From positions 1-24,059 of the IMG/VR virus record IMGVR_UViG_3300006754_000171: a stretch of DNA of 24,059 bases; one strand, 5' to 3'. The notes under the pieces are model-generated. The model made no database searches. It saw only the letters and a program-made list of their open reading frames with translations, and was not told the DNA's origin. The stretch is from a virus. Shown here piece by piece: positions 579 to 24,059 of this stretch (positions are counted from its first letter, which is position 1; each line of letters starts with the position of its first letter). Position numbers and translations under genes: made by a program.

Positions 579-3500
579 TTAACAACATTTACAATTACCC
601 GATTCCGCAGCAGTTAAAGCCGCTTGTAAATCTTCAATTTTAGAATTAACATATTCTATATATTCATAATCCCATCCTGTAATTTTTAACGCTCTAAATA
701 ATGTATAAGCCACTATAAAATCTTCATATACCTTATCACATTTATTACATTTAATATTACACATATTATCTTTAAATAACTCCTGAAGTCTGCCAGCAGC
801 CTCACATAATATAAGTCTACATTCTTTCCATGGTGTCCCTCCAACGCCTTCTAGTTCTAAAACATATAATCCATCCGCAAGCTCTTCATTTGCTGTAAGG
901 GCACTTTCTCTAAATGGAACTGTTACCGTAATATCAGGAGCAGTTCCACCTATCATACTATCTAGTATATTCGTTACTACTTCTGTAGTAAGATTTGTTA
1001 TTGTCCCTATAATGCCATCTGCAGGGGTTGATTCATCTGTAGGAGTATTTGATCCTGTATTAATAGTTATATAAGCAGTAACGGGATCTCCTGGTTCAGT
1101 TATACAAGCACAAGTAATTTCAGGATATGTAACACATACAGTATACTCAGATTCACCATAATCAAATATAAATGTAAACTCAGTACAAGCTCCTGGTAAT
1201 GTATAAGACCATGCTTCTGCTCCTTCAAATCCAAATGTTATAGTTCCTACTAATCCTAAAAGAGCAGCATGACTTATATTTGTTATTTCTCCACTAGCGT
1301 CTGTAGTATAAACTACACCATTTACAGCAAACTCTGCCCCAACTTTGGGTGAACCGTTTTCTAATATTCTAAAATTAACACAATCTGTACCATCACAACT
1401 AGTTCCTCCTTGTCCTAAAAATAATTCTAAATCAGTTTCAAATCTAGAAGCAGTAAATGTACGACATTGCGTATTAATCCACCAACCTTTATCTTCTAAT
1501 CCTCCCCAATTAATACTATCAGAATTTCCTGCAGGTATAGGATGATCCGTAAGATTCCAATATGGATTTGCAGTTTCTAATGCAGTTAGATCAGCATAAG
1601 CACATTTATCATTAATACCTGTTGTTGAGTCAGGATAAGGAGAGTCTGTAGTATTTGTACCTGATGTTGTTGGAGCTGTTCCTGCAGCCCACATTCCCGC
1701 AGCTGAAGTTCCATTTGCTATTGCGGCTAAACCTTGTAAAGGTAATGCTTTATGAGGATCCATAGCTCCTCCAGAAGGTTTAGAAGGATAAAAGAAGGCT
1801 TGATAAGATTTTCCAGAAACTGCTGTATAAGCGGCTCTTCTAGCATTAAATTCTAATAAATCATATTTATAACGATATGTTGGTTGTACAATTCTTTCAT
1901 CCGCTAAATCATAAGTAGTAAAGTTAGAAAGATGAGGTACTGCAGGTCCAGTTATAGCACCAGGGGAATTATAATAAGGATTATATTCTGATCTATTTAA
2001 AGAGTAGAAAGTTCCTGTAAAGTCAGGCGTAGATCCTGAACTTCGATCGTGATAAGCAGGAACTGATTCGTCAGCAAACACTATAACTAAAACATTATCA
2101 GTAGCTGGCTCTGCTATAGGAGGAGGTCCTAAATGGACACAGTTAGCTTGTGATCTTGCTATAGGATCTGAAGCGTTATTCGCGGTAGCTGCATCTGCTT
2201 CTTCCGCCATTCTAGTCCATGTATTAGGAGCTGTATAATTTGTACTATTATATGTAAATACAGAATGCCCTTTTGGTCCTTGTCCTGTAGCTGTATCATA
2301 TGAACTTGGACAATAAAATTGTACAGGTTGAACTGTACCACCGCCAGGTAAATTTGTTATATTACTATTTTTCCATTGATCAAAGGACCAGTTAATCGCT
2401 TGCACTGAATAACCAAAATCAGGATATAAAGGCCAAGCCCAAGAAGTACGTAGATTATTAGATACATTATTAAATTCAGTTCCGTCAGGTTTAGATAGAC
2501 TTGTTGCTCTATTTGCAGAACCTGCTGACATTACAGCGAAATTCAGAGGCCATTCACTCTTAGTCGGTGCTCCCGATTTAGTTCCAGCGAAAGATACCCC
2601 CCAACCTACCCAATGGTTAAGTTTCCCTGTAATTATACCAGTAGAACCAGTATAACTATATCCTGCAGATTCTCCCGTAGCATGTCCGAATCCTTCAACG
2701 TGTTTTGTACCTCCTGTATGATTCCCTCCTGCTCCTAAATGATCTCCTATATATCCTCCTTTATTAGATTGAGCAGTTTGTTCTGCAGATTCATCTACTG
2801 AAGTATCAAACATACCTGTTATAGGTACTATTCCCCAATCTAACCAGTTTTCTCCTGGTGAACCTATTGATATATGAAATACATTCTCACCTGGAGTTGT
2901 TCCATAAGAAAAAGCGGCATAAGCTCCTGTAGCATCTTGATTATTATAATTAACCTGTTGAGAAGGATCTCTTAATACGGGCGTAAAATCAGGATGTAAG
3001 TCTAGCCAATCATGAACAGCTATAAAGGCAGCTTCTACTGCTGCTTGTCCCAATGATGTACCATCATAAAAACAATATATTTTTGTATCTATACCTATAG
3101 TAGACATTCCACAAGCTTCTAATTGTTCTTCAAGATCGTCAAAACAGATATGTTGCTCTTGGGCTATTTTTCCTGTTACATCTCCTAAATTTGTTACATT
3201 AGGAGGAGTACCCATACTAGTCCAAGTTGTACCTCCATCTATACTTGTTACAGCAGAGATAACATCTTGTCCAGGGTCAGCTATTAAAGATGTACAATTA
3301 CCTCCGAAATCAACTTCACAATCTGCAGGTTGAGTACTACCATCATCCCCTGCAGATATTCCCGTTTGTCCAGGATGATATTGCCCACAATTATCACATT
3401 GATATTCTTGAAATAATTTTCTAAATGCTGAGAATATTTTAGTATATGCTTCCACTGTTAAAGGACTTGCCTCTCCTTCTACCTCAACTGTATCACATTT

Positions 3501-5492
3501 ATACATTTGATAGAATTGAGCTAATAATGATTCTGCATATTGTAAATCAGATCTAAGTTTTTCTATTTTAGGGTTTGTCTCACAAAGATCTGTACAGTCT
3601 TCTAATAACTGTTTTGATATATCTTTTAATAAACATTCTGCTGTATCAGGCATTACTTGACAGGAGCCATCATCGCAAGTAGCTGCTGGATTATAGTTTA
3701 AAGATAAAGGATTAGTGCATCCATATATACAATAAATACAACTTCCATCATCTATATTAGCAGTTGGATCATAATTAAGTGCTCCATTAATTCCTAAACC
3801 TGCACCATTTATTGTCCAATTATCTGTACATCCATATATACATAATGCAGTTGGAGTATGTGTATGTTCAAAATATTTTAAAATTACAAGATGTTGTCTA
3901 CAATCTCTCAGTAAATTTAAAGTCTCGCATGGCCCTATATTTATAGTATAATTTCCTAGACCTGTTACCATTGGTGTATATCCTAAACTGTCTGTAGTAT
4001 AATTAGTTCCTCCTATATCAACAACATGTCCAGAGATTGCTGCTCCAGTATCAGAACTTACAACTTGAACTCTTACACAATCTGTTTGATCACACTGTGT
4101 AGTAGGACCACTTCCTGTAATAAATGCTTCTAGATCAGTTACAAATGTACCTGAAGTAAAGGCCGCACATTCTACATTACACCCAAAATTTAAAGCATCT
4201 AACTGTCCAAATCTACCCGATTCTTGAGTACTATAAGGGTTAGACAGTGTTATATTCGTAAGATCTGCAATATTACAAGTAGGAGCTGATGCAAGTGTTC
4301 CTGTTGTTATAGCTCCTAAAAGATGTAATGGAAATACATTTTGTGCAGAATTAGTTGAACTATGTACTGCAGGATAAACGAAAGTTTTAAGAGTTCCAGA
4401 TGATTGATGATTTGCTATTATCGTTTTTGCTCTTAAAACATCATATTTCCATAGATCTGTTAATTCAAAATCCCCTGGAGCAGTAGATAATTGTCCTCCT
4501 GTAGCCTCCTCCCAAGGAGTAACTATATTAGCAGTACTGGCATTTTTAAAGTGATAACCATCATTTAAATCATTTGAATTAGTATTACCAAATTCTGGAT
4601 AACTTCCTCCAGTAGCACCATCTGGTCCCCAATTTCCTGTATTGGCTGTTTGATTTACTGGATCAGCTCTATAACTTGACATTGGAACTCCTTGAGCTTC
4701 ATCTGCAAAACATACAACTAATACATTAGCTGTAGGTCCTTCTGGAGCAACAGGAAGTGTAGCAGTAGGTTGTCCAGATCCTAAAGAGGCATTAGCATCA
4801 TTTGTCCAAAACGTATTACTTCCTACTGCATTATCTCCTAGAGCATAGGCCCAAGGAGTAGCTACTGGATCGTGACAAGATGTACCACCATTACAAGCAT
4901 TACTATGATCATCTGTACCTCCACAGTTAACATTATGATCTACAACCCACGCTGGCCATAAAACCCAACGTTCCCCGTCTGCTGCAATATGGTATACTTT
5001 ACCTGTATAAGTTCCAGCATTTCTTAAAGCAATAATCCAATCATTAGCTGCTAAATATATTACCTCACATTCGTCCTCATCTAAAGAGGTAGTATCGTAA
5101 AAGAAATAGATTGCTGTATTAGAAGCTAAAGTACTCGTACCACATTCACCTATTGCCCATGCTGGCTGAGTACCTGTTCCATCCCAACTTAATGCATTTT
5201 GAATAGATTCGTCAATATCGCAATATGCTGTAATAGTAACATCATCCCATCCTGTTGCTGCAATAGGATTGGGTTGCAGATCTAGCGTAGATAATATTGG
5301 GCATCCTGAAGCATTAGCTTCACAACATGGGACTGGAATAGGTCCTATAAGTACTCCACCTGCTTGTACCTGAACTTGAAAAAGACCAGAAGGGGCACCA
5401 TATGATAATCCTATCTGTAGATCACCATTAGGTAAACATGTTTCTGTTACCTGAACTTGACAAGGGGGAATATTATTGTTTATATTAGGCAT
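579..5492 (-). CDS. Giant duplicated Cys-rich virion adhesin-like protein, 1637 aa
   Basis: This is the largest gene, the last big one in the head and tail series, so a tail-fibre or other host-contact virion protein is likely. Two related halves are visible. Copy 1 (residues about 128-507) has IYFFYDTTSL at 128, NVLVVCFADE at 256, a KYD-L block at 349, FVYP at 371, FTSGTFVTDLEAF at about 445 and CDQTDCVRVQV at 467. Copy 2 (about 805-1403) has IYCFYDGTSL at 805, NVLVIVFADE at 1133, YKYDLLEF at 1208, FFYP at 1233, FTASRFETDLELF at 1346 and CDGTDCVNFRI at 1366. The strand, acidic loop and helix order resembles a von Willebrand factor A fold, but the canonical DxSxS is not exact. The CDxTDCV blocks precede Ig-like or carboxypeptidase-regulatory-like segments. 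Two GCT[DN]...DDGSC motifs lie at 551-611. Cys-rich helical segments occur at about 620-703 and 1558-1637. By my count there are about 55 cysteines. No signal peptide is seen. Confidence 0.93.
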   Translation of the reverse strand: MPNINNNIPPCQVQVTETCLPNGDLQIGLSYGAPSGLFQVQVQAGGVLIGPIPVPCCEANASGCPILSTLDLQPNPIAATGWDDVTITAYCDIDESIQNALSWDGTGTQPAWAIGECGTSTLASNTAIYFFYDTTSLDEDECEVIYLAANDWIIALRNAGTYTGKVYHIAADGERWVLWPAWVVDHNVNCGGTDDHSNACNGGTSCHDPVATPWAYALGDNAVGSNTFWTNDANASLGSGQPTATLPVAPEGPTANVLVVCFADEAQGVPMSSYRADPVNQTANTGNWGPDGATGGSYPEFGNTNSNDLNDGYHFKNASTANIVTPWEEATGGQLSTAPGDFELTDLWKYDVLRAKTIIANHQSSGTLKTFVYPAVHSSTNSAQNVFPLHLLGAITTGTLASAPTCNIADLTNITLSNPYSTQESGRFGQLDALNFGCNVECAAFTSGTFVTDLEAFITGSGPTTQCDQTDCVRVQVVSSDTGAAISGHVVDIGGTNYTTDSLGYTPMVTGLGNYTINIGPCETLNLLRDCRQHLVILKYFEHTHTPTALCIYGCTDNWTINGAGLGINGALNYDPTANIDDGSCIYCIYGCTNPLSLNYNPAATCDDGSCQVMPDTAECLLKDISKQLLEDCTDLCETNPKIEKLRSDLQYAESLLAQFYQMYKCDTVEVEGEASPLTVEAYTKIFSAFRKLFQEYQCDNCGQYHPGQTGISAGDDGSTQPADCEVDFGGNCTSLIADPGQDVISAVTSIDGGTTWTSMGTPPNVTNLGDVTGKIAQEQHICFDDLEEQLEACGMSTIGIDTKIYCFYDGTSLGQAAVEAAFIAVHDWLDLHPDFTPVLRDPSQQVNYNNQDATGAYAAFSYGTTPGENVFHISIGSPGENWLDWGIVPITGMFDTSVDESAEQTAQSNKGGYIGDHLGAGGNHTGGTKHVEGFGHATGESAGYSYTGSTGIITGKLNHWVGWGVSFAGTKSGAPTKSEWPLNFAVMSAGSANRATSLSKPDGTEFNNVSNNLRTSWAWPLYPDFGYSVQAINWSFDQWKNSNITNLPGGGTVQPVQFYCPSSYDTATGQGPKGHSVFTYNSTNYTAPNTWTRMAEEADAATANNASDPIARSQANCVHLGPPPIAEPATDNVLVIVFADESVPAYHDRSSGSTPDFTGTFYSLNRSEYNPYYNSPGAITGPAVPHLSNFTTYDLADERIVQPTYRYKYDLLEFNARRAAYTAVSGKSYQAFFYPSKPSGGAMDPHKALPLQGLAAIANGTSAAGMWAAGTAPTTSGTNTTDSPYPDSTTGINDKCAYADLTALETANPYWNLTDHPIPAGNSDSINWGGLEDKGWWINTQCRTFTASRFETDLELFLGQGGTSCDGTDCVNFRILENGSPKVGAEFAVNGVVYTTDASGEITNISHAALLGLVGTITFGFEGAEAWSYTLPGACTEFTFIFDYGESEYTVCVTYPEITCACITEPGDPVTAYITINTGSNTPTDESTPADGIIGTITNLTTEVVTNILDSMIGGTAPDITVTVPFRESALTANEELADGLYVLELEGVGGTPWKECRLILCEAAGRLQELFKDNMCNIKCNKCDKVYEDFIVAYTLFRALKITGWDYEYIEYVNSKIEDLQAALTAAESGNCKCC
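1284..3080 (-). repeat. Internal duplication copy 2, expanded
   Basis: Codes for residues about 805-1403 of the 1637-residue protein. It has the same anchors in the same order as copy 1, but the stretch between FYDGTSL and NVLVIVFADE is about 200 residues longer. That insert is rich in Gly, Ser, Thr, Asn and aromatic residues, so the host-facing variation may sit there. Confidence 0.8.
3660..3842 (-). repeat. Tandem GCT[DN]-NY[DN]P-DDGSC motif
   Basis: Codes for residues 551-611 of the 1637-residue protein. Two adjacent units each run from CIYGCT through a NYDP or NYNP turn to DDGSC. The first unit has an insertion (NWTINGAGLGING), while the second has the compact form. The motif is widespread in secreted and surface proteins of marine Bacteroidetes. 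Its Asp-rich turn and paired cysteines suggest a small metal- or disulfide-stabilised module. It sits between the two duplicated halves. Confidence 0.85.
3972..5111 (-). repeat. Internal duplication copy 1 (VWA-like plus Ig-like block)
   Basis: Codes for residues about 128-507 of the 1637-residue protein. It aligns by eye with 1284-3080 through the ordered anchors FYDxTSL, NVLVxxFADE, KYDxL, FxYP, LxGAI or LAAI, FTxxxFxTDLExF, CDxTDCV and the YTTD turn. Similarity is at protein level only; I see no long identical DNA run, so the duplication is old. Confidence 0.8.
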
Positions 5493-5517
5493 ATTAACTT
5501 AAGATTTTAATTCAGAC

Positions 5518-5575
5518 CTCTATATGAGCCTGTAGAGATGTAATTGATGTAGAGAACTCCCGAAGGAGTCTCTAC
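5518..5575 (-). other. UUCG-capped hairpin with competing repeat arm
   Basis: This lies in the 158-bp gap between the 347-residue gene and the 1637-residue gene. On the minus strand the arm GTAGAGA-CTCC (5575-5565), loop TTCG and GGAG-T-TCTCTAC (5560-5549) form an 11-bp stem with one bulged T and a cUUCGg tetraloop. A second TCTCTAC at 5538-5532 could pair with the same 5' arm. It could also form a small CTCTA...TAGAG stem (5537-5533 with 5522-5518). There is no T-run after the hairpin, so a simple intrinsic terminator is unlikely. An RNA-processing site, stability element or 5' leader switch for the giant gene is possible. Confidence 0.6.
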
Positions 5576-5628
5576 GCCAATCAACCAATTAAACAACAAA
5601 ACAAATGGACAAACAACCCACTGTTTCT

Positions 5629-5648
5629 TATATGCTTAAAAGCATATA
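5629..5648 (-). other. Perfect 9-bp hairpin just after a stop codon
   Basis: On the minus strand TATATGCTT-TT-AAGCATATA begins 2 nt after the TAA of the 347-residue gene. The stem is perfect but AT-rich, and no T-run follows. It may protect the 3' end of the message or act as a weak terminator. The short central loop and palindromic form also allow a protein-binding site. Confidence 0.5.
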
Positions 5649-5650
5649 TC

Positions 5651-6694
5651 TTAAGCAAATATAGCTGCGATATTAGCTATCGTTCCAGCTTGATTTATAC
5701 CAACAATAAGTTCTTGTGACTGAACTACTGGATTAAGTGTGTTAGCACCTAAATAAGATTCACAAACTTCTACTACTACATAGTCATAACCAGTAATTGT
5801 AGCATCAATTGCACCTGCAGCATTTGGCCATGCTACTCCACCATTATAAAGTTCTGCTCTGTACGTACCAAACTCACGTTTGTAACCATCAGACCATCTT
5901 ACCATATTACCTATTTGGTATGGGTATCCAATACCGTAAGTTACGGCAGTAGTTTGAACTACAGCAGCATTCGTTTGGCACTCAAATCCTCCTAATAAGC
6001 TAATATTAAATGTTCCCATAGTTTGATCTAATTCCATAACATCTTGACCACATGGAACTGGCTGACTTAATGGAAAATCTCCTGTTACAACAATTACAAC
6101 TTCATCACATTCTGCCTCACTAAGAGCCCAATTTGCTTCAGTAAGGTCTTCTGGAGCAGCACCAGAAATATCTTGTGCTACAGCTGTTAAATAAGGGTGA
6201 TTATTAATTTGCACACCCATATAATAAGCTAATTCAGCACAATTTCCTGATGGACATGCAGTTGAACAATCATCACAACATCCAGTAGTATAACTAAAAG
6301 TTTCTATCATATCGTTATAACCATATGATTTAGCTATTGCCTCTGAATCAAAAGAAACTTTTACTAAATACTCAGTTTCACAAGATGTATCTCCAACTGT
6401 GATTGTCATAACTTTATTAACAGCTTCTGTAGCTTCAGCTGTAGTTATTCTACATGGAACTGTGTTAAATACATTTGATAATTGTGTAAATGGTGCTGTA
6501 GCAACTCCGCTAGCAACTCCTAAATACCAACCATCATTTGCAGCTAAAGCTGCTGTTACGGTCGCATAGCATGTGCCGTCATCACTTCCTATGACAGCAA
6601 TTTCACCTACAGCAAAAGTAGCTGCGGTAGCTGCTGCTGAAGTTTGAACTCCTTCGGTTCCTTGTAGGAACACTTGACTTACATTGTTTTTCAT
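5651..6694 (-). CDS. Cys-rich virion structural protein, 347 aa
   Basis: No family is recognised with confidence. The protein is Ala/Thr/Val-rich with many short beta-strand-like segments, and begins MKNNVSQVFLQGTEGVQTSA. It has 12 cysteines, five of them in one cluster at about 138-152 (GCCDDCSTACPSGNC). No signal peptide or membrane helix is apparent. Its place downstream of the capsid and probable head-completion genes, and just before the giant adhesin-like gene, suggests a major virion component such as a tail-tube-like, head-fibre or decoration protein. The A/T-rich leader before ATG 6694 lacks a Shine-Dalgarno. A 9-bp hairpin and a UUCG hairpin follow the stop. The high cysteine count is shared with the giant protein, suggesting that the two are adapted to the same environment or contact each other. 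Confidence 0.85.
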   Translation of the reverse strand: MKNNVSQVFLQGTEGVQTSAAATAATFAVGEIAVIGSDDGTCYATVTAALAANDGWYLGVASGVATAPFTQLSNVFNTVPCRITTAEATEAVNKVMTITVGDTSCETEYLVKVSFDSEAIAKSYGYNDMIETFSYTTGCCDDCSTACPSGNCAELAYYMGVQINNHPYLTAVAQDISGAAPEDLTEANWALSEAECDEVVIVVTGDFPLSQPVPCGQDVMELDQTMGTFNISLLGGFECQTNAAVVQTTAVTYGIGYPYQIGNMVRWSDGYKREFGTYRAELYNGGVAWPNAAGAIDATITGYDYVVVEVCESYLGANTLNPVVQSQELIVGINQAGTIANIAAIFA

Positions 6695-11125: not shown

Positions 11126-14100
11126 CTAAGGGGTTACTGTTACTTCAGGAAGTATATAACCACCTATTAAATGTTCTGGTCCTTCATCTCTACTAAATTC
11201 CCAAAGTAGTCTCTCATTATCGTGCATATTATGAAATCCTGGTAAAAATGCACCGTTATCCATCCATTCTCCTCCATCATAATCACTTCCTCCCTTCTGT
11301 TTACTGTATACAGATTCGTCAGAAAATGTAGGGTGATTAGGTTTTTTCCATTTATCACTTCCGTGTCCTCTGGAATCTGTTGCTTTCCAATCTCCAGATT
11401 TCCAAAAACCTCTAACATCATATGCGCCCTCATCCATCATATTTACTTTCTCGCCCGTAACTGGATTTTTCCAGTTAGTGGCCCAAAGTAAAAAACTATC
11501 CATCTCCTCTTCTGATAATTCTGTATTATACTTTTCTTGAAATATCATTTCCATATCTGAAAGAGGACTTATACCGTCTGGTATATATGGTAATCTATCT
11601 TTTACAAAACCTGTAAGTTGATTTTCTGTAGTATTCCCTACTTTTCCTCCATCATTAAATTTTCTAAAACTTTTCATATATCGAGAAGTAGCAGCGTCTT
11701 TATTTGCATATACAGTTCCTCCTTGTTTATAATTACTTTCTTTTTCACTTTCATTTACTTTTACTTTTTTATTCTGAGGAAATTCATTAGTATTATAATA
11801 ATTTACAACATCGGTTATATATTCAGGTTCTTCATCTTTTACACCGCCTCTCCAGTGTTTTACTAATTCCTCTAAAGAAGGCTCTCTTCCTAAATCTTCT
11901 TTTAACATATTATATGTTCCTTTCAATAAAACAGTACTAAGATCTTTATATTTTTGATGATACTCTTCTCCACTTAAATCTCCCGAACCTTTATAATTAT
12001 ATCTACTTATATCTTCTCCAGTTGTAGGATCTATACCACCTTCAGGATAATCTATACCTCCATATTTAAAAAATAAAGCTGCTTGATCTTTAAGTTGATC
12101 TACATAAGACTGGTCCCAAGATACTCCTCCATCTTCTGGGTTATCAGCTGTAGGGTCATCCCAATAGTGTCGTCTTCTACCAAATGTATTTAAATCTTCT
12201 AATCTACTAGTAGTAATTTGAATAGGCCCATAGGCAGAAGAACCTTTTTCAGTTCCTGCTCTTTGGCCTTTAGTGCCTTTTGTTCTTATGTAAGGACTAT
12301 AATTTTCCGTTCCTAAATATCCTAAATGTTCTCTCGCTTCTATAGCTTTATAGAGTTTTTCATAATCTATTGGTTCTTGATATTTATTAATAAGTCCTCC
12401 ATCTTCAAACACATCTGCTTCCATATACATACCATTACCTATACCTAGACTTCCTGTAGTAGTAGTATTTCCTGTTTGTTCTGCAATTAAATTTTGTCTA
12501 TTTATTTGAGCATTTAAAGCTGAATCAGAACTTACTGTCTTGGGAGTATTATCAACAATTGTATTAATTAACTTATTAGTTTTATTAAGTTTACCAGCAA
12601 CTCCCAACTCTAGCCCACCCCCTCCTATTAAAGGTTTATTATACATATTTTCGCTAAACCCATAGTTAGCTTTTTGTAACCAATTTAAATCCTGATAAGG
12701 AGTTTCTTGAGCTTGAAATGATGTTAAAGGAAGAGTTTCAGAAGTAACATTAGTTCCATCTGAATAGGTAGTTGCAGCAACAGGGACTGTTCCCCAAGCG
12801 TATGGCATTGTTTTTTTAATCATTTCATACCATTTTTTACTTCCTACTGTGGCTCCCTCCATGTTACCCAGAAGTTGAGTAACGTCATTTGGTAAATACT
12901 TACCATCAGAAGCCCTTGCTATTCCTAACATTGGTTTGCCCTTTATGTGTGAACCTGTAGTACTATTTATAATATCATTTGTTAAACCTTTTTTGGTACC
13001 ATCCCAACCATGTGCTTTTAAGATCTCTTTATACCTTAACATCCTTACTTGTTGTTCTTGAGGCCGCATCAAGTATTCATGCATCTTATGCCCTTTGTTT
13101 ATTTCAATTTTAGGATAATTTTTATAAGCTCCTTCCCATGTAGAAACCTTTGTTGCTTTATCATAACTGTATCCTGCTTCTGCGCCCTTCTCTCCATACT
13201 TACTAGCCCACTCAGTATGTTTTGGATTCTCGCCAGCAAATCTTATATCATCAGAAGATGTAACAGCATTAGATTCTTTTGCTGTTAAAGATTTACCTTT
13301 TGATTCTGTCCATAAAAACTCTTCATGAGGGTTCTTTCCCTTAGCAGGAACATTAGGTTTAGATGCAGGACTTAATAGATGTTTTGTTTCATGATCAAGA
13401 TTACCTAAAAGCTGATCTATCTCGTCTATCTCGTCACTTAATCGTATTTCGTTAGCAGATCGCTTATACCATGCAGCTGTTTTTTCATCATTATGGCTTA
13501 ACCACTTACTCTCTGTGCTACTTTGTTTAACAGCAGTTTTTTTTGCTTCTTCTAAATATTCTTTTATTTTTTTAACAACATGTTCTCTACTCTCTCCAGT
13601 ATTTGTTGTTCTTAACTTTATGTATTCCTCACTTATTAAATAATCTTTATTTTTCTGAAATACATCTTTGTATGATGGGATCCTATTTGGACCAAGAGAA
13701 GGATCCATTTTAGGAGTATGTTTTACATTTTTTAATTTTGAAGCATTTGGTAAAATTTTTGGTAAAAGTTTTTTAGTAGCTGATATACTAGAAGGAATAG
13801 CAGGTACAACTCCAAGTGCTTCTAGTGAGCCCGATAAAAGATTTCCTTGCTTAAACTCTTCCTTAGAAGCCTCTGCAGACTCTAACCATGCAAATGGATT
13901 AACCATTCCTACAGCATAAGTATCAAATGCATTTTCATGTCTAGGAACATTACCCCAAGGTATATCTTCTCCTCTAACAGAATACCCAAACGTAGCTAAT
14001 GGATTAGCCCCTGCATTTTTTATTTTCTCCCATAATGTTTTTTCTGGACCCGCTGGATTTAGATATGTTCTACGATTATGATAATTCTGTTCTTCCTCTT

Positions 14101-14194
14101 CAATTTCTATATTAGGATTAGGTATAGTTACACGAGTATTATCCGCTTCAGCTATATATGGATTATTATGATAGAATGGCAAATGATGCGGCAT
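11126..14194 (-). CDS. Virion internal or ejection protein with metallopeptidase-like and lysozyme-like motifs, 1022 aa
   Basis: This is probably a virion enzyme that helps DNA entry by opening the cell wall. An HExxH zinc-peptidase motif (HETKH, residues 268-272) follows the acidic helix DEIDEIDQLLGNLD. A possible third ligand, Glu380, lies in RPQEQQVRMLR. Residues about 611-690 look like a lysozyme or transglycosylase domain: a helix with candidate catalytic Glu619 or Glu622 (KAIEAREHLG), then YIRT and SSAYGPIQIT (652-661). A related helical part reaches HWRGG at 780. Short Gly-Gly linkers recur (FEDGGLI at 596, YKQGGTV at 822, FNDGGKV at 846). The C-terminus ends GGYILPEVTVTP, a tail I have seen on virion proteins of Bacteroidetes phages. 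No signal peptide is present. It sits 2 bp after portal. The peptidase assignment is inference from motifs; the lysozyme-like one is stronger. Confidence 0.85.
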   Translation of the reverse strand: MPHHLPFYHNNPYIAEADNTRVTIPNPNIEIEEEEQNYHNRRTYLNPAGPEKTLWEKIKNAGANPLATFGYSVRGEDIPWGNVPRHENAFDTYAVGMVNPFAWLESAEASKEEFKQGNLLSGSLEALGVVPAIPSSISATKKLLPKILPNASKLKNVKHTPKMDPSLGPNRIPSYKDVFQKNKDYLISEEYIKLRTTNTGESREHVVKKIKEYLEEAKKTAVKQSSTESKWLSHNDEKTAAWYKRSANEIRLSDEIDEIDQLLGNLDHETKHLLSPASKPNVPAKGKNPHEEFLWTESKGKSLTAKESNAVTSSDDIRFAGENPKHTEWASKYGEKGAEAGYSYDKATKVSTWEGAYKNYPKIEINKGHKMHEYLMRPQEQQVRMLRYKEILKAHGWDGTKKGLTNDIINSTTGSHIKGKPMLGIARASDGKYLPNDVTQLLGNMEGATVGSKKWYEMIKKTMPYAWGTVPVAATTYSDGTNVTSETLPLTSFQAQETPYQDLNWLQKANYGFSENMYNKPLIGGGGLELGVAGKLNKTNKLINTIVDNTPKTVSSDSALNAQINRQNLIAEQTGNTTTTGSLGIGNGMYMEADVFEDGGLINKYQEPIDYEKLYKAIEAREHLGYLGTENYSPYIRTKGTKGQRAGTEKGSSAYGPIQITTSRLEDLNTFGRRRHYWDDPTADNPEDGGVSWDQSYVDQLKDQAALFFKYGGIDYPEGGIDPTTGEDISRYNYKGSGDLSGEEYHQKYKDLSTVLLKGTYNMLKEDLGREPSLEELVKHWRGGVKDEEPEYITDVVNYYNTNEFPQNKKVKVNESEKESNYKQGGTVYANKDAATSRYMKSFRKFNDGGKVGNTTENQLTGFVKDRLPYIPDGISPLSDMEMIFQEKYNTELSEEEMDSFLLWATNWKNPVTGEKVNMMDEGAYDVRGFWKSGDWKATDSRGHGSDKWKKPNHPTFSDESVYSKQKGGSDYDGGEWMDNGAFLPGFHNMHDNERLLWEFSRDEGPEHLIGGYILPEVTVTP

Positions 14195-14196
14195 AT

Positions 14197-16707
14197 TTAT
14201 TCAGATTTTTTCTTAGATGCTCTATCTTTAGCTTTTTCTTTTTTATCGTGTTCTCTTTTTTTCTCCTCTTCATAAGTTTTTTCGCCTATTTCTTTTTCTT
14301 TAATATCGAGTTTACGATTTTCAAGTTCCATCTTTTTATCATTATTCTCTACTTGAGCTTTTAATTTCTCAATCTCTAACTGATCAGGAACTCCGTTATC
14401 GTTAGAATCTTGATCCATTTGATTTCGGAAAGAATTTATTTCTGCTACTTTAAGTTTAGTTTCGTTATCTTTATCTACTTTATACTTATCAAGTTCAAGT
14501 TTTTGTTTCTCAATTTCAGCTTTTTCTGCAGCCATTTGCTGAGCAGCTTGTTGTTGAGCTTGTACTTGTTGTTGCTGAGCTTGTTGTTGCTGTTCTTGAA
14601 TTTCTTTCTCTCTTTGTCTTCTTTCGTCTTCAGCTTTTTCTAATATAACTTTTATTTCACTACTTGAATCAGTTGATAACATCTTAATTACATCTGATAA
14701 TTCTGCCTGTTGATTTTGTAATGCAGCATGTGCAAGTTGTTTCATAGTCATAAACATCTCTTGATCTTTTGCGGAGTCAGAAACAAATACCCCAAAACTA
14801 GAGTTAGAAAGCTCAGGAGGATCTATAGTTATAAGCCTAGTAGTCATATCATCTAGTATATATTGAAGTTTCTTTTTCTTACCGTCTCCCCACGCAACTT
14901 TAGCAGTATCTACTAATCCTTCTAAAACAGCTCCTTTTAAATAATTATGTTGGTAAAACCACTCCTCAGTAATATGTGAAGATTGTACAACAGCTTGTTG
15001 AGTATTTCCAACAAGTTCATGGGGACCTACTTGACCTTCTCTTTGTTTAGTAACCCCAGATACTTCACCACATTGTGCCTCTAGATATTCTAATAACGAT
15101 ATCTTTTGTTGTATAGTTTGTGCCATAGTAAGATCAATAGATTGCCATTGATTGAAATTACTAGGTTTATTTCTAGCTCCCTCTTCATTTGGATTAACAA
15201 ATGCGATACCTAAAGCGTCAAAATAGTATAACCACTTTTCCATATCCATCCCCATAGAAGATGGTATTTGAGTAATATCTGCTAAGAACTTTTTACCTTT
15301 ATCAGATGCTAGATCTAATTCTAATCTATACATCATAATATTATATAAGTATTGATAAGGTTTCATTCTATCTATCATAGAGATAGATTGAGAATTTAAA
15401 TTATTATAAGCTAATCCACAATATCCTAACTTAGCTGTATATAAATTATCTATATCCTTAAATTGATTAGGTTTTGCTCTCATGTTAATATAAATATCAT
15501 CTCCTATTTTGGTACCTTCCCATATTTCAGGAATCCATTCCCATTTTATGTTGATATCTCCAGCATCTTTATTTATTTTATATGTACCATCAACTATCAT
15601 TTCTGCCTCTTCCATGGTTTCAGGATCTAAATATGTTAAAAATCCTATACGTTGTAAAGATTTCCACTCACAGTGAACGACTCTTATATAAGAGCCGCTT
15701 TCACTGTCAGTGTTATTTGAATCCCACTCGAAAGGAAAAGAAGAAGAAAATACGTCTTGGTCATCGTAGTTAAATTCAGGGGAGCCCAATGGATGGGCGG
15801 TACCAGCTGTACTGGTATCGTCAAATAAATCTTTTACTTGTTTTTCAGTTAGATATTCTCCAAAATTATCTACAACAGATCCTGGAGTCATTCGCATAGT
15901 ATATTTAGCCCACTGTGCATCTTGGATATTATCTATATCAGGATCTTTATCACATTCAAAATATAAAGGATTAACTACCCTAACAGCAGGTTCACCATTA
16001 ATAACGCCAACCCAATATATTTCTTGGCCAGCAATTAATGCATGTTTCCATCCTTTATTAAATTTTAAACGTAAAGATTCCTTTTTCTTCAGATACCCTA
16101 ACATTTGATTACCCATAATCTCAATAGTCCCTTGGTAATCTCTTCGCATATACTCTTCAATCTCTGAAGGAGTCATTTGCTTCTGTATTTGTTGTATCTG
16201 TTGTTGCATTTGTTGCGCCTGTTCAGGATCTTGAGATTCTGGAACACCCCCTTCAGGAGATAACCCAGATTCCATAATAGCTTGCTGAACTCTAACTTGC
16301 ACTTCTTGTTGTATATAGCTTTTAAGTAATTTGGCCTTTTCTCTTTCTCTTTCTGTTATAGCTTCTGGATTTGTAGCTACAACCTTAAAATTAAAAGGTC
16401 TTTTGATTTCTTCTCCAAATAAAACACGCAATTTAGGAGACATAATATCGTAATGTCTTAATTCTGCAGGTAATTCACCTACTCCTTCAACTCCATAAGG
16501 TTTACAAACGTATTCAAAGTCGTTGAGGTCTAGTATTCCATTAAATAAATCATAGTTTACTGATTTTCTTTCTATATCATTACGACCACCTGTGGTCATA
16601 TTTCTATGCTTATCTATTTGATCTATAACGTCTTTAGCCCATTGAAAGTCATTTGCTTTCTTTTTAGAGTATGAAAGTCTCTGTTGTGGAAATGCATATG
16701 ATGCCAT
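14197..16707 (-). CDS. Portal protein with long coiled-coil tail, 836 aa
   Basis: The portal forms the dodecameric ring at the capsid vertex through which TerL packages DNA. The N-terminal core has a block typical of Bacteroidetes podovirus portals, with LRHYDIMSPKLRVLFGEEIK and PFNFKVVA at about 82-110. The centre carries receptor-like segments such as YCGLAYNNLNSQSISMIDRM and the helix TMAQTIQQKISLLEYLEAQC, followed by SGVTKQREGQVGPHELVGNT. From about residue 685 the protein becomes a Gln/Ala-rich then Glu/Lys-rich coiled coil that runs to the C-terminus (residue 836), much longer than in a minimal portal. Within it, residues 765-778 form a DxDxNDNGxPDxxE loop. The gene lies between TerL and the 1022-residue virion protein, as expected. 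It is preceded by a TATATTTG promoter-like element. Confidence 0.9.
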   Translation of the reverse strand: MASYAFPQQRLSYSKKKANDFQWAKDVIDQIDKHRNMTTGGRNDIERKSVNYDLFNGILDLNDFEYVCKPYGVEGVGELPAELRHYDIMSPKLRVLFGEEIKRPFNFKVVATNPEAITEREREKAKLLKSYIQQEVQVRVQQAIMESGLSPEGGVPESQDPEQAQQMQQQIQQIQKQMTPSEIEEYMRRDYQGTIEIMGNQMLGYLKKKESLRLKFNKGWKHALIAGQEIYWVGVINGEPAVRVVNPLYFECDKDPDIDNIQDAQWAKYTMRMTPGSVVDNFGEYLTEKQVKDLFDDTSTAGTAHPLGSPEFNYDDQDVFSSSFPFEWDSNNTDSESGSYIRVVHCEWKSLQRIGFLTYLDPETMEEAEMIVDGTYKINKDAGDINIKWEWIPEIWEGTKIGDDIYINMRAKPNQFKDIDNLYTAKLGYCGLAYNNLNSQSISMIDRMKPYQYLYNIMMYRLELDLASDKGKKFLADITQIPSSMGMDMEKWLYYFDALGIAFVNPNEEGARNKPSNFNQWQSIDLTMAQTIQQKISLLEYLEAQCGEVSGVTKQREGQVGPHELVGNTQQAVVQSSHITEEWFYQHNYLKGAVLEGLVDTAKVAWGDGKKKKLQYILDDMTTRLITIDPPELSNSSFGVFVSDSAKDQEMFMTMKQLAHAALQNQQAELSDVIKMLSTDSSSEIKVILEKAEDERRQREKEIQEQQQQAQQQQVQAQQQAAQQMAAEKAEIEKQKLELDKYKVDKDNETKLKVAEINSFRNQMDQDSNDNGVPDQLEIEKLKAQVENNDKKMELENRKLDIKEKEIGEKTYEEEKKREHDKKEKAKDRASKKKSE

Positions 16708-16736
16708 AGTATTAAAGTATTTTCTTTTCTAACTTA

Positions 16737-16744
16737 CAAATATA
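16737..16744 (-). promoter_or_regulatory. Promoter -7 element TATATTTG before portal
   Basis: The minus strand reads TATATTTG 29 bp upstream of the portal ATG, starting 5 nt after the TerL stop. The expected -33 region lies within the end of TerL and shows no clear TTTG, so this is a weaker promoter call than the one at 20342. Confidence 0.45.
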
Positions 16745-16748
16745 GTAT

Positions 16749-18797
16749 TTATCTTTTAAACATATTGCTCATGTTATCTACTAAATACTTAATATTCGGA
16801 TTTACGTATGGCTCTTTGTCTACACTTTGTTCATAGTACTCTTCAACACAGAACATTATCTGCATAAACCCCATAACTCTATCGAAATTCCCTTGTCTAT
16901 GATATTGAATCATTTCTTCAATTAATCCTGGTGAAGGGATTAAATCCATATTATATATCATAGATCCGTCTTCATTCTTACCTCTCTCTGTCCACAGCCA
17001 TCTTAATATAAATTTTTCTCCTGCATCTTTCAAACGATCGTTCATATGACATCCTTTTATTCTGGCTACTGTTGAATTTTGTATTACTTTCGATATTACA
17101 TTATCAGGTTGGTCTGCAAGTAAATGCATTTTACCTCTACGTTTAAAATAAGAGAGTACTTCTCCCCTATCATTTTCGAACATTATCTCAGCTCCTCCAA
17201 AATACTCAGATAATAATTCAAGATTTCTATTATAAATCTCTATATTGTCAGGTCTGCCAACATACTCCGCAACTATTTCATCATATCCATGATCAAATTT
17301 TTGATGTGACTTATATACAAAAGCTGCATTTAAAGATTTACTTCCAGACTTGTCAAATGCTACAGGGTCAAGTCCGATTTTATAAAGACCATAGGGCATG
17401 TCTTCAGGAGGATGTTGATATACAACAATACATCCTTCTTGTGGATCATTAGGACTATGCGGAAACTTATGCATAGGAAATAATTTTTTATTTAAGTCAG
17501 GTCTAAATCTAACCTCTCCATCTTCTTCAAATAATGTTCCTGCTGTTCCTAATTTTTTATATCTTTCATCTTGTTTTAATTTGGCTAATACATTATATAA
17601 CTCAATGGCTGGAAAAACTGCTCCTTCATTTCTCAAGAATGCTTCTTTTGGTGTATGAGGATGCTGAGTTACCATCATATTATATGCTTTTGGATCAGCT
17701 TTTTTCTTTTCTTCTCTCTCTAAATCTATATCCTCAACAGCTTTTTCTCTTAATGCATTTCCATCTTCATCTATAAAAGGTTCTCTATACCACGCATCAT
17801 CTACAAACCATCCCGCCTCTCCTACAGCAGATTCATCATATATATTTTCATATGCTCTTAATCCATATGCTGAAGGATTATAAAACATAGCTTCAAAGTC
17901 TGCATTAGTTCCATTTTTATTATTACCCCCTGTTCCATATATAATAGGAATACCGATCATAATATTACCATCTTTAAATAGAGGATATGAACGTTGATAT
18001 GCTTGCATTAATCCAGGCCAATCTCCAGCTTCCTCAAATAACATTCGTTCAGCAGTACGTCCTACAGATTTTTGTGGAGAATCTTTAAATGATAATGCTA
18101 ATATTTCAGATTTAAATCCTTTCTGTATATTAATTCCCGATATAGGATCCTTTTCTACATATCCAGATTTAATAGCATCTTGTCTATCGTGTAAAAATCC
18201 TTTTGCCCAATCTGTGTTTTCATTAATAAAGTTAATCATATTCTTAGCCATTTCCATAGTATTGGCCCAGAATGTTTTCTCATATGCTGCTAGTATAGAT
18301 ATAGAATTAGGGAACCAATTGTATTTCCACGCCATCCCAAAAGCGTTCTTATAAGAGAATCCTTTCCGCCTAGCTTTTACAACAATCATACCTTGTCCAT
18401 TCTTCTCTGCTTGTTCGAGTTCATGATACCAATAATAGTCCATATCTAAAAACTTAGGAAAGGTATCTATCTTTCTTTGGCGCTTATCTTGTGTAACTGT
18501 CGCTAAAATTCTTCCGTAATTAAGGTAGGCATAATGCTCTCCTGTAACGCGTACTCCTCCTACAGTATATCCAAATTTACAACGTCTTTCTTCTTCGTCC
18601 CAAAATTCTATATACTCAGAAGTCCCTACTGGAGCTAATGTATAACGTTTATGTTTTAAGTAATGTCTCGCGGATTCGCTAAATACCTGTGTATTTATAA
18701 ATTTTAGGTATTTCTGACCTGTATGTCTTACTGGATCTTTTTTGTCTGGTTCTAGTTTATTCCATTCTTTCCCTATAATTTCTTTTTGTTTACCCAT
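16749..18797 (-). CDS. terL: Terminase large subunit (ATPase and nuclease), 682 aa
   Basis: This is the packaging motor that translocates DNA into proheads and cuts concatemers. The ATPase part shows a Walker A-like VVKARRKGFSYK at 139-150, with the lysine- and arginine-rich form typical of this terminase branch. Walker B and the catalytic acid are RMLFEEAGDW at 251-260. A following motif has PLFKDGNIMIGIPIIYGTGG (272-291), a likely coupling segment. The nuclease part has acidic residues in YKIGLDPVAFDKSGSKS (Asp477) and in MFENDRGEVLSYF (Glu541 and Asp543), with a third candidate at Asp639 (FDRVMGF). The length fits TerL. The start overlaps the 115-residue gene by 25 bp. I recognise no small terminase next to it. 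Confidence 0.95.
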   Translation of the reverse strand: MGKQKEIIGKEWNKLEPDKKDPVRHTGQKYLKFINTQVFSESARHYLKHKRYTLAPVGTSEYIEFWDEEERRCKFGYTVGGVRVTGEHYAYLNYGRILATVTQDKRQRKIDTFPKFLDMDYYWYHELEQAEKNGQGMIVVKARRKGFSYKNAFGMAWKYNWFPNSISILAAYEKTFWANTMEMAKNMINFINENTDWAKGFLHDRQDAIKSGYVEKDPISGINIQKGFKSEILALSFKDSPQKSVGRTAERMLFEEAGDWPGLMQAYQRSYPLFKDGNIMIGIPIIYGTGGNNKNGTNADFEAMFYNPSAYGLRAYENIYDESAVGEAGWFVDDAWYREPFIDEDGNALREKAVEDIDLEREEKKKADPKAYNMMVTQHPHTPKEAFLRNEGAVFPAIELYNVLAKLKQDERYKKLGTAGTLFEEDGEVRFRPDLNKKLFPMHKFPHSPNDPQEGCIVVYQHPPEDMPYGLYKIGLDPVAFDKSGSKSLNAAFVYKSHQKFDHGYDEIVAEYVGRPDNIEIYNRNLELLSEYFGGAEIMFENDRGEVLSYFKRRGKMHLLADQPDNVISKVIQNSTVARIKGCHMNDRLKDAGEKFILRWLWTERGKNEDGSMIYNMDLIPSPGLIEEMIQYHRQGNFDRVMGFMQIMFCVEEYYEQSVDKEPYVNPNIKYLVDNMSNMFKR

Positions 18798-21158: not shown

Positions 21159-21437
21159 TTACTTTTCTACTTTAGCAAATAGAGCAAACTCTTTAAATAC
21201 ATGATAAACATCTTCTTCGTAAGATACAGGTATACTACCTCCTGGAGGTAATAAAATCTCATCGTTTTTAGAAAAGTTCTTCACATCTGGCCCAATCGCT
21301 ATAATTTTCCCAGTTAGGTTCTTTTGTATTTCTCTCGCTACATCTTCAGAGACTTGTATCCCTGATTCTGTTTCTGTTGAAGGTATTTTAACATATACTA
21401 ATATGTTATCACCCATCATTTTAATTTTGTTTGTCAT
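21159..21437 (-). CDS. GroES-like co-chaperonin, 92 aa
   Basis: The protein should cap a host GroEL ring and help fold a phage protein, most likely the capsid protein, as T4 gp31 does. Family marks are in order: GDNILV at 9-14 (for GDRVLV), the mobile loop with SGIQVS at 25-30, which keeps the GI-x-V pattern that contacts GroEL, GKIIAIGP at 43-50, then NDEILLPPGGSIPVSYEEDV and a terminal strand EFALFAKVE. The length is near the usual 95-100 residues. The mobile loop reads IPSTETESGIQVSED, which is standard in length. It stands between the 113-residue zinc protein (3 bp gap) and the 63-residue gene, in the block transcribed ahead of the capsid genes. I see no large chaperonin subunit here. Confidence 0.88.
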   Translation of the reverse strand: MTNKIKMMGDNILVYVKIPSTETESGIQVSEDVAREIQKNLTGKIIAIGPDVKNFSKNDEILLPPGGSIPVSYEEDVYHVFKEFALFAKVEK

Positions 21438-23008: not shown

Positions 23009-23368
23009 TTACTTAATTTTAAAGGCAAATGTAAGTGTCACCTCTCTCTCTTTTTTTATATCTATTTTAGGACTAAGTGCAAGCTTTCCTGTCTTAGGAT
23101 CCTTCTCTATTACTCCCTTTTGTTTAAAATACTTTATATAGTTATCTAAATTTGAATGCGTTTTAAATCCTAACCTTTCTCTAACTACAGATCTAGCTTG
23201 AGTACCAAATCGATCTAACTCCACTAAATCCCCTTGGAGTTCCATAAAGCATGATAATACTTCAATCTCCTTTGTAGTTAAGGGATTAGGTAAGATTACA
23301 TTTACAAGCTTAAGATATTTGGGATTAAAATCCTTCCTATTTATAACTTCTTTTTTTATTCGCTTCAT
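23009..23368 (-). CDS. Winged-helix-like DNA-binding protein, 119 aa
   Basis: This is the first gene of the minus-strand block and probably a transcriptional regulator or other DNA-binding factor. After a basic N-terminus (MKRIKKEVINRKDFNPKYLK), residues 30-44 (LTTKEIEVLSCFMEL) form the first helix of a helix-turn-helix. Residues 58-100 (ARSVVRERLGFKTHSNLDNY, then IKYFKQKGVIEKD and a wing hairpin with PKTGKLALSP) match the recognition helix and wing of winged-helix proteins. Proteins of this type are common in Bacteroidetes phages. A TATATTTG promoter lies just upstream with a TTG at N20, so this is the likely start of the operon. No signal peptide. Its position next to the divergent control region fits a role in switching between the two arms. 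Confidence 0.78.
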   Translation of the reverse strand: MKRIKKEVINRKDFNPKYLKLVNVILPNPLTTKEIEVLSCFMELQGDLVELDRFGTQARSVVRERLGFKTHSNLDNYIKYFKQKGVIEKDPKTGKLALSPKIDIKKEREVTLTFAFKIK

Positions 23369-23386
23369 ATTTCGCTTTTATATGTG

Positions 23387-23417
23387 CAAATATATACAAA
23401 AAAAGTCCACCCCACAA
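23387..23417 (-). promoter_or_regulatory. Promoter with TTG-N20-TATATTTG before the minus-strand block
   Basis: The minus strand reads TTG (23417-23415), 20 nt, then TATATTTG (23394-23387), within the usual TTG(N17-23)TAnnTTTG range for Bacteroidetes. It lies 18 bp upstream of the first minus-strand ATG and probably drives the small-gene cluster. Confidence 0.65.
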
Positions 23418-23444
23418 CTTTATTTAAAGAATTTCGCATTGTTA

Positions 23445-23633
23445 ACTGAGTTTCTTCTAGTAAAACTCTTTAATTTTCAGTTCTTTAACGTTGTGAATAA
23501 ACACATATCCCCTCCCGCAAGTGTGTTTTATTCCCCGAAACTCATCGATTTGATGAGAAGTCCACTGACTTTTTGAAAGCTGATCTGTAAAGTTAATTAC
23601 AGTGGTGGTATATAGTATGAGTTGTATATACCA
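23445..23633. other. Hairpin-rich region, candidate structured RNA or origin
   Basis: Successive inverted repeats tile this stretch: AACTGA with TCAGTT enclosing GAGTTT with AAACTC (23445-23483), GAATAAA-CACA with TGTGTTTTATTC (23495-23533, one bulge), CTCATC with GATGAG (23541-23557), AAGTC with GACTT (about 23559-23573), CTGTAA with TTACAG (23585-23602) and TGGTATATA with TATATACCA (23606-23633, 9 bp perfect). The pairing is symmetric on either strand. If transcribed from right to left it would form the leader of the winged-helix gene. No convincing ORF spans it. It may be a structured RNA, a regulatory leader or part of a replication origin. Confidence 0.55.
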
Positions 23634-23714
23634 TTAGACGTAGTAGCGGGACTTCATATCATTTATTTTCTTGATCCCGTGTCACGGTCTTTCTCCGTTG
23701 GTGAATTATTGCTG

Positions 23715-23722
23715 CAAAAATA
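23715..23722 (-). promoter_or_regulatory. Weak -7-like element TATTTTTG
   Basis: The minus strand reads TATTTTTG, matching TAnnTTTG, at the edge of a very AT-rich tract (23716-23770), with no good TTTG upstream. Transcription from here would run left through the hairpin region 23445-23633. AT-tract chance matches make this a weak call. The tract could also serve as a DNA-unwinding element. Confidence 0.3.
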
Positions 23723-23822
23723 TAAAAAAATATTTAAAAAATATAATTTTCAGCATAAATTTTAAAACATTAGGCTATACCCCTAGTAAAATTATACGTG
23801 TAATCGAGATCTTAATCTACCA

Positions 23823-23855
23823 AATACAAAACACCCCGACTAACTTTCGGTCGGG
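23823..23855 (-). terminator. Rho-independent terminator-like hairpin, minus strand
   Basis: On the minus strand CCCGAC (23855-23850), a 9-nt loop (CGAAAGTTA) and GTCGGG (23840-23835) form a 6-bp GC-rich stem, followed by GTGTTTTGTATTTG. On the plus strand no T-run follows. If real it ends a minus-strand transcript from about 23860-24010, where no protein gene is seen, which points to a short RNA. It may instead be one stem of a larger structured RNA. Confidence 0.5.
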
Positions 23856-24000
23856 AAGCACCCCCGCCCAAAGTCTCTCACGTGTTGTTAGGAATACGTG
23901 TCTGCACTTAAAAGGTGGACTATGGTTGACACTAGGTCATTCACTATACGACATAGTTTAACACCGTGAGGGTGACGTAGCATGAGAGTTGCTACCAGTT
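23856..24000. other. GC-rich non-coding island with several stems
   Basis: This stretch is visibly richer in G and C than the surrounding genome and carries short inverted repeats: CACGT with ACGTG (23879-23900), CTATG with CATAG (23920-23956), CACC with GGTG (23962-23974) and GTAGC with GCTAC (23977-23995). Such an island in an AT-rich genome often marks a structured RNA. I see no tRNA-like cloverleaf or rRNA signature. Either strand could carry the product; the terminator-like hairpin on its left favours the minus strand. Confidence 0.45.
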
Positions 24001-24013
24001 TAAACATACTATT

Positions 24014-24059
24014 ATGGAAACACTACATACTAAAGTACGTCAAACTGAATTACAACCTG
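24014..24059 (+). CDS. Probable start of a divergent plus-strand gene, partial
   Basis: The frame opens at ATG 24014 and reads METLHTKVRQTELQP to the right edge with no stop. It would be the first gene of an opposite arm, divergent from the minus-strand block. Fifteen residues are too few to name a function. No Shine-Dalgarno or clear TAnnTTTG precedes it, although genes on the minus strand also lack Shine-Dalgarno sequences. A hairpin GTAGC...GCTAC (23977-23995) lies about 19 bp before the ATG. The assignment rests on the change of orientation and on the lack of coding on the minus strand here, so it is tentative. Confidence 0.45.
   Translation, partial: METLHTKVRQTELQP

Follow-up and report, generated by a model that had tools for sequence, protein, structure and literature searches.

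The 645-bp divergent gap (23369–24013) in a marine crAss-like phage genome encodes a chain of stem-loops, of which P2, P3, P4 and a 3′ hairpin are backed by covariation and P5 and P6 are predicted by folding. We read this chain as a putative minus-strand RNA gene of ~215 nt, with homologues in distant phages and in bacterial mobile elements, which may act in trans on the host.

A divergent gap in a crAss-like phage genome

The window, that is, the whole stretch of 24,059 nucleotides analysed here (IMG/VR record IMGVR_UViG_3300006754_000171), is of crAss-like phage origin: it encodes a capsid protein with a match to Crass_capsid, as well as a terminase and a portal with matches to phage families. 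Minus-strand genes extend up to 23368 and a plus-strand gene begins at 24014, the latter encoding a full 130 aa in the overlapping contig L010. An earlier note on this DNA had described the gap between them as exceptional in a genome whose other gaps mostly stay under 160 bp, and it is indeed more than three times the size of the next largest gap in the window, which measures 194 bp. The compositional contrast it described is also real, with 7% GC at 23716–23770 and 49% GC in the GC-rich island at 23830–24000. Elsewhere in the window (21159–21437, minus strand) the phage encodes a GroES-like co-chaperonin. The features in and beside the gap are as follows.

23009–23368, minus strand: first late gene, 119 aa, assigned to phrog_16323, a family annotated without a function
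23387–23394, minus strand: second promoter box TATATTTG, for the late operon (18 of 21 relatives, 1.6 expected)
23495–23710, minus strand: predicted non-coding RNA gene of ~215 nt, from conservation and covariation in phages and bacterial elements; we infer both ends, the start (~23710) from the promoter box and the end (~23495) from the last conserved hairpin
23499–23528, minus strand: 3′ hairpin with a G-rich loop (consensus GGGNGGG..AUAAG), from a pair count over 16 sequences
23541–23557, minus strand: stem-loop P6, CTCATC/GATGAG, from the predicted fold; kept in the window and in L012
23558–23571, minus strand: stem-loop P5, predicted by minimum-energy and centroid folds
23585–23602, minus strand: stem-loop P4, CTGTAA/TTACAG, from covariation within subgroups
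23606–23633, minus strand: stem-loop P3, a perfect 9-bp stem TGGTATATA/TATATACCA, 100% paired with compensatory changes in six sequences
23637–23644, minus strand: unpaired conserved ACTACGTC, opposite GGAYAC and flanking P2 (alignment A2)
23647–23679, minus strand: stem-loop P2, CGGGAT/GTCCCG, with the conserved apical loop CAAGAAAA..AATGATATGA
23715–23722, minus strand: promoter box TATTTTTG of the RNA (TAnnTTTG, Bacteroidota sigma-A type), inside the AT-rich tract, from counts in homologues
23716–23770, no strand assigned: AT-rich tract, the promoter upstream region, from base composition
23803–23870, plus strand: separate conserved element in the plus-strand leader, a C-rich hairpin outside the RNA, from a loose pattern found in 17 of 21 relatives (~13 clear)

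Across relatives the core is laid out as GGAYAC–stem–CAAGAAAA..AAUGAUAUGA–stem–GCNACUACGUC, followed by several hairpins and the 3′ hairpin with its loop GGGAGGGGAUAAG. Three unpaired surfaces are strongly conserved: CAAGAAAA..AAUGAUAUGA at the apex of P2, GGAYAC/GCNACUACGUC in the internal loop, and the G-rich 3′ loop. The fold of the window also has a long-range helix that joins the 5′ end to UUUCGGGGAAU; as some relatives, judged by eye, do not keep it, it was omitted from the model. A reading of the locus as a short peptide was rejected, as the AUGAAG frame is closed immediately by a stop codon in L052 and L055.

Covariation and strand

P2 carries the strongest covariation. Across 21 sequences all 126 of its 126 cells are paired (117 Watson–Crick, nine G–U and no A–C), and five of its six pairs are altered on both sides. 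These one-sided wobbles fix the minus strand, since a plus-strand reading would give mismatches; P4 also shows G–U wobbles when read on the minus strand. The nine-pair core structure has a covariation score of 0.64, compared with 0.21 in the shuffled control and at most 0.21 in slid controls, so its compensatory changes exceed both kinds of control, the pattern sought in structured non-coding RNAs generally. P3 and P4 covary inside two subgroups, and comparable stems of different sequence occupy the place of P3 in other clades. In 16 sequences with hand-placed arms, the 3′ hairpin has 87 Watson–Crick, four G–U and one A–C among 96 cells; on a MAFFT alignment at register +2 it is 97.4% paired, a figure that covers roughly half of the sequences, those that MAFFT aligned.

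Against 20 shuffles per strand, the whole gap has folding z-scores of −5.55 (plus) and −2.58 (minus); the RNA itself (23490–23712, minus strand) folds with z = −2.48 (200 shuffles), recovering P2–P6 and the 3′ hairpin. Two of the checks proposed in the earlier note, folding against shuffled sequence and covarying pairs in related intergenic regions, thus came out on the side of structure, the first for the gap and the RNA and the second for P2, P3, P4 and the 3′ hairpin. The two long inverted repeats that it named exist and are conserved: 23606–23633 is P3, and 23495–23533 includes the 3′ hairpin. As a strand criterion, folding energy was discarded as uninformative because both strands fold about equally, with a mean z over 28 homologues of −2.09 sense and −2.35 antisense. 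On sequence grounds, strand is settled by covariation together with promoter orientation, not by folding energy.

Promoters and transcription unit

TAnnTTTG is the consensus of Bacteroidota sigma-A at positions −12 to −5 (PMC9723704). In 19 of 28 homologues such a box precedes the RNA on the RNA's own strand, where 3.0 are expected; three occur on the opposite strand. The predicted gene thus has a candidate promoter of its own. The box of the window runs from 23722 to 23715, and the RNA start is therefore placed near 23710. The AT-rich stretch, previously taken for an unwinding-prone tract, is better explained as the promoter region of the RNA. With separate boxes preceding the RNA and the late operon, the RNA probably forms its own transcription unit. 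Reading of the sequence for an intrinsic terminator found no U-run after the 3′ hairpin, nor after the hairpin at 23835–23855 in either direction, and the description of the latter as terminator-like is not upheld.

On the plus-strand side of the gap, the element at 23803–23870 has the form TCGAG..CCAC..AAAC[T/A]CCCC..ACCCCCG with alternative hairpins in most relatives. The remaining plus-strand leader (23871–24005) was considered as a second RNA and rejected, its fold being no better than shuffled (z = −1.03 and −1.30); its hairpins display apparent compensatory changes between the window and L012.

Occurrence in phages

Matches to the terminase and to the first late protein served to gather related phage contigs. 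The element is present in all 24 of 24 that cover the stretch upstream of the first late protein, several of them near-identical, and it lies upstream of the same late operon. Each of ten records tested contains a single copy. A DNA-level search pattern based on the core picked up further viral contigs, among them two distantly related crAss-like phages, of 98 and 112 kb. Both of these, L264 and L265, have the RNA between a tRNA gene array and the late operon, with 21 and 19 tRNA genes, respectively, in the surrounding 19 kb.

R1, a covariance model built on the core, scores 72.0 bits in the window. Applied to the whole genomes of five cultured relatives, Fpv1, FPSV-S29, cr50_1, phi14:2 and crAss001, it found no RNA; thus the RNA is not a general feature of crAss-like phages. 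In Flavobacterium phage FPSV-F12 (L101), the divergent gap (5327–5892) is without the RNA and contains a motif like AATAAGTGAGGGTTTTG about three times, which is possibly a phage promoter.

Occurrence in bacterial mobile elements

The DNA core pattern, run over 84,980 prokaryote species, returned 78 stretches, and those convincing after a stem filter came from two Chitinophaga species (L136 and L171), the Flavobacteriales MAG L160, and L173. The last of these (NZCU01000008.1) is filed as a Nanoarchaeota MAG and has a length and match position identical to those of the phage contig L068/L076; it is probably phage contig L068 under another name, through a binning error. With R1, and with the known copy counted in, Bacteroidota genomes gave one hit in a phylum sample of 395, two among 197 genomes of the family, four among 79 of the genus, two among 299 of the order and two among 395 of the class. 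The RNA is rare in Bacteroidota genomes.

Altogether, eight Bacteroidota loci carry the RNA, four as strong and four as weak matches. L136, L171, L160 and L206 score above 50 bits with R1, and L160 and L206 were not among the sequences used to build it. L213, L214, L215 and L263 score 34–42 bits; their acceptance depended in part on inspection by eye of the 3′ architecture that they share. Most of these loci are integrative elements that encode tyrosine or serine recombinases, and several sit at tRNA genes. Some have defence genes in or beside them, including ApeA-type HEPN, CAP12/Pycsar-type TIR and Cas12a. The Cas12a gene lies at 13671–17441 (plus strand) of L263, in an island beside tRNA-Ser that holds one of the weaker copies. 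At five bacterial loci (L210, L212, L213, L215 and L263) the downstream gene is convergent to the RNA. BLASTP between the phage and bacterial neighbourhoods compared found no common gene.

Relation to known RNAs

The earlier note recognised no known RNA family, and this holds against Rfam 15, which spans tRNA, tmRNA, 6S, RNase P, GOLLD, ROOL, riboswitches and ribozymes: at the gathering cut-off there was no match in the window and none for the RNA in relatives, and permissive sub-threshold searches returned noise only. Literature searches of open-licence papers turned up no account of a structured RNA at the crAss-like phage locus. GOLLD and ROOL are structured non-coding RNAs of phages and prophages, often near tRNAs and of unknown function (PMC12286853). 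Two distant members of the new RNA likewise follow a tRNA array. However, GOLLD and ROOL are larger (~650 to >800 nt) and have other structures, while the conserved region here is ~215 nt, below 600 nt, and has no Rfam match. The close relative L012 does have a GOLLD RNA (211.7 bits; 1454–1828, minus strand) and a Pistol ribozyme (67.6 bits; 2137–2203, minus strand), both in the opposite gene block and ~3–4 kb from the new RNA.

Phages P1, P7 and N15 and the satellite P4 encode regulatory antisense RNAs beside genes that they possibly control (PMC7567579), and the present RNA resembles these as an element-encoded non-coding RNA adjoining candidate controlled genes. An antisense regulator of the adjacent plus-strand leader, that of the divergent early genes, was nonetheless rejected, with pairing of the G-rich loop reaching p < 0.05 against shuffled leaders in 0 of 19 cases. 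A Shine–Dalgarno mimic, with GGAGG directed to the 16S 3′ end, is disfavoured: L045, L160 and L052 have T or G for A and keep the G-runs of the 3′ loop but not GGAGG. Among the early genes of phage crAss001 is one for a TROVE protein (PMC8375218). A Y RNA of a Ro/TROVE particle is not supported here, as none of seven phage records that carry the RNA has a TROVE gene. Of five host genomes tested, three do, on another contig than the RNA.

What the RNA may do

Compensatory pairs, strand-specific wobbles, a promoter box, occurrence only once in each genome, and homologues both in distant phages and in mobile elements of bacteria all argue for the phage-encoded structured RNA that the earlier note had offered among its readings. 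The claims for structure and promoter are much firmer than the claim for function. For the latter we favour, at a probability of about 0.6, an independent trans-acting small RNA with a host-type promoter that engages a host factor. A minus-strand RNA of ~215 nt would be read from the sigma-A-type promoter in the AT-rich tract and would act in trans, as RNA or RNP, through its conserved unpaired surfaces. The factor engaged would be common to Bacteroidota cells (a protein, the ribosome or an RNA), and an incoming or excising element might thereby be helped to use or disarm its host. A host partner is sought because the loci compared have no common partner gene.

Much of the arrangement in phages would also suit a replication origin, the other reading raised in the earlier note, in which the RNA, transcribed into the origin, would form a persistent hybrid through its G-rich loop and prime DNA synthesis as ColE1 RNA II does. 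That plasmid primer exceeds 500 nt, has multiple stems and has its G-rich loop near an AT-rich region. The RNA described here is likewise multi-stemmed, with a conserved G-rich 3′ loop, an adjacent AT-rich tract, a divergent position and one copy per element, although at ~215 nt its length differs. A check of GC skew gave a divided answer: one 92-kb relative has its cumulative minimum near the RNA and the divergent point, and a 94-kb relative has it elsewhere. The skew change also coincides with the coding-strand switch, which alone could yield a minimum at the divergent point. Furthermore, bacterial islands place the RNA beside an integrase and not consistently beside a replication gene, and we consider a part in an origin unlikely. 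A cis-regulatory role, in which the RNA would serve the late operon as a 5′ leader of the attenuator or riboswitch type, strikes us as distinctly unlikely. In phages the RNA is co-directional with that operon and directly upstream of it, and the conserved internal loop is a conceivable ligand pocket. Yet the first late gene has its own TAnnTTTG box just before it in most relatives, and some phages have an extra gene inserted between the RNA and the 119-aa gene. The downstream gene is not always co-oriented either; where it is convergent, at the five bacterial loci, the RNA is not a leader.

Selection might, on the other hand, act on the inverted repeats as DNA, as a cruciform origin or a packaging site with any RNA incidental; the repeats fold about equally on both strands and packaging genes lie in the adjacent operon. 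The one-sided wobbles of P2 argue against a purely DNA-level structure, under which they are unexpected, and promoter orientation agrees with the RNA strand, making this account very improbable. Beyond the independent trans-acting RNA that we favour, we raise more tentatively that one RNA family is common to crAss-like phages and to integrative elements of Bacteroidota, possibly of satellite or defence type, because it acts on a shared host factor or on each other. In this reading the shared RNA would manipulate a conserved Bacteroidota process, such as the ribosome or a defence system; beside this suggestion we note that several bacterial copies lie near defence genes.

crAss-like phages are abundant, and the RNA would be both a new family and a handle on interactions between such elements and Bacteroidota cells. 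The Chitinophaga copies reside in sequenced, named strains, so expression and deletion are directly testable. As far as sequence comparison can tell, the distribution points to an RNA that phages and other mobile DNA of Bacteroidota have in common.
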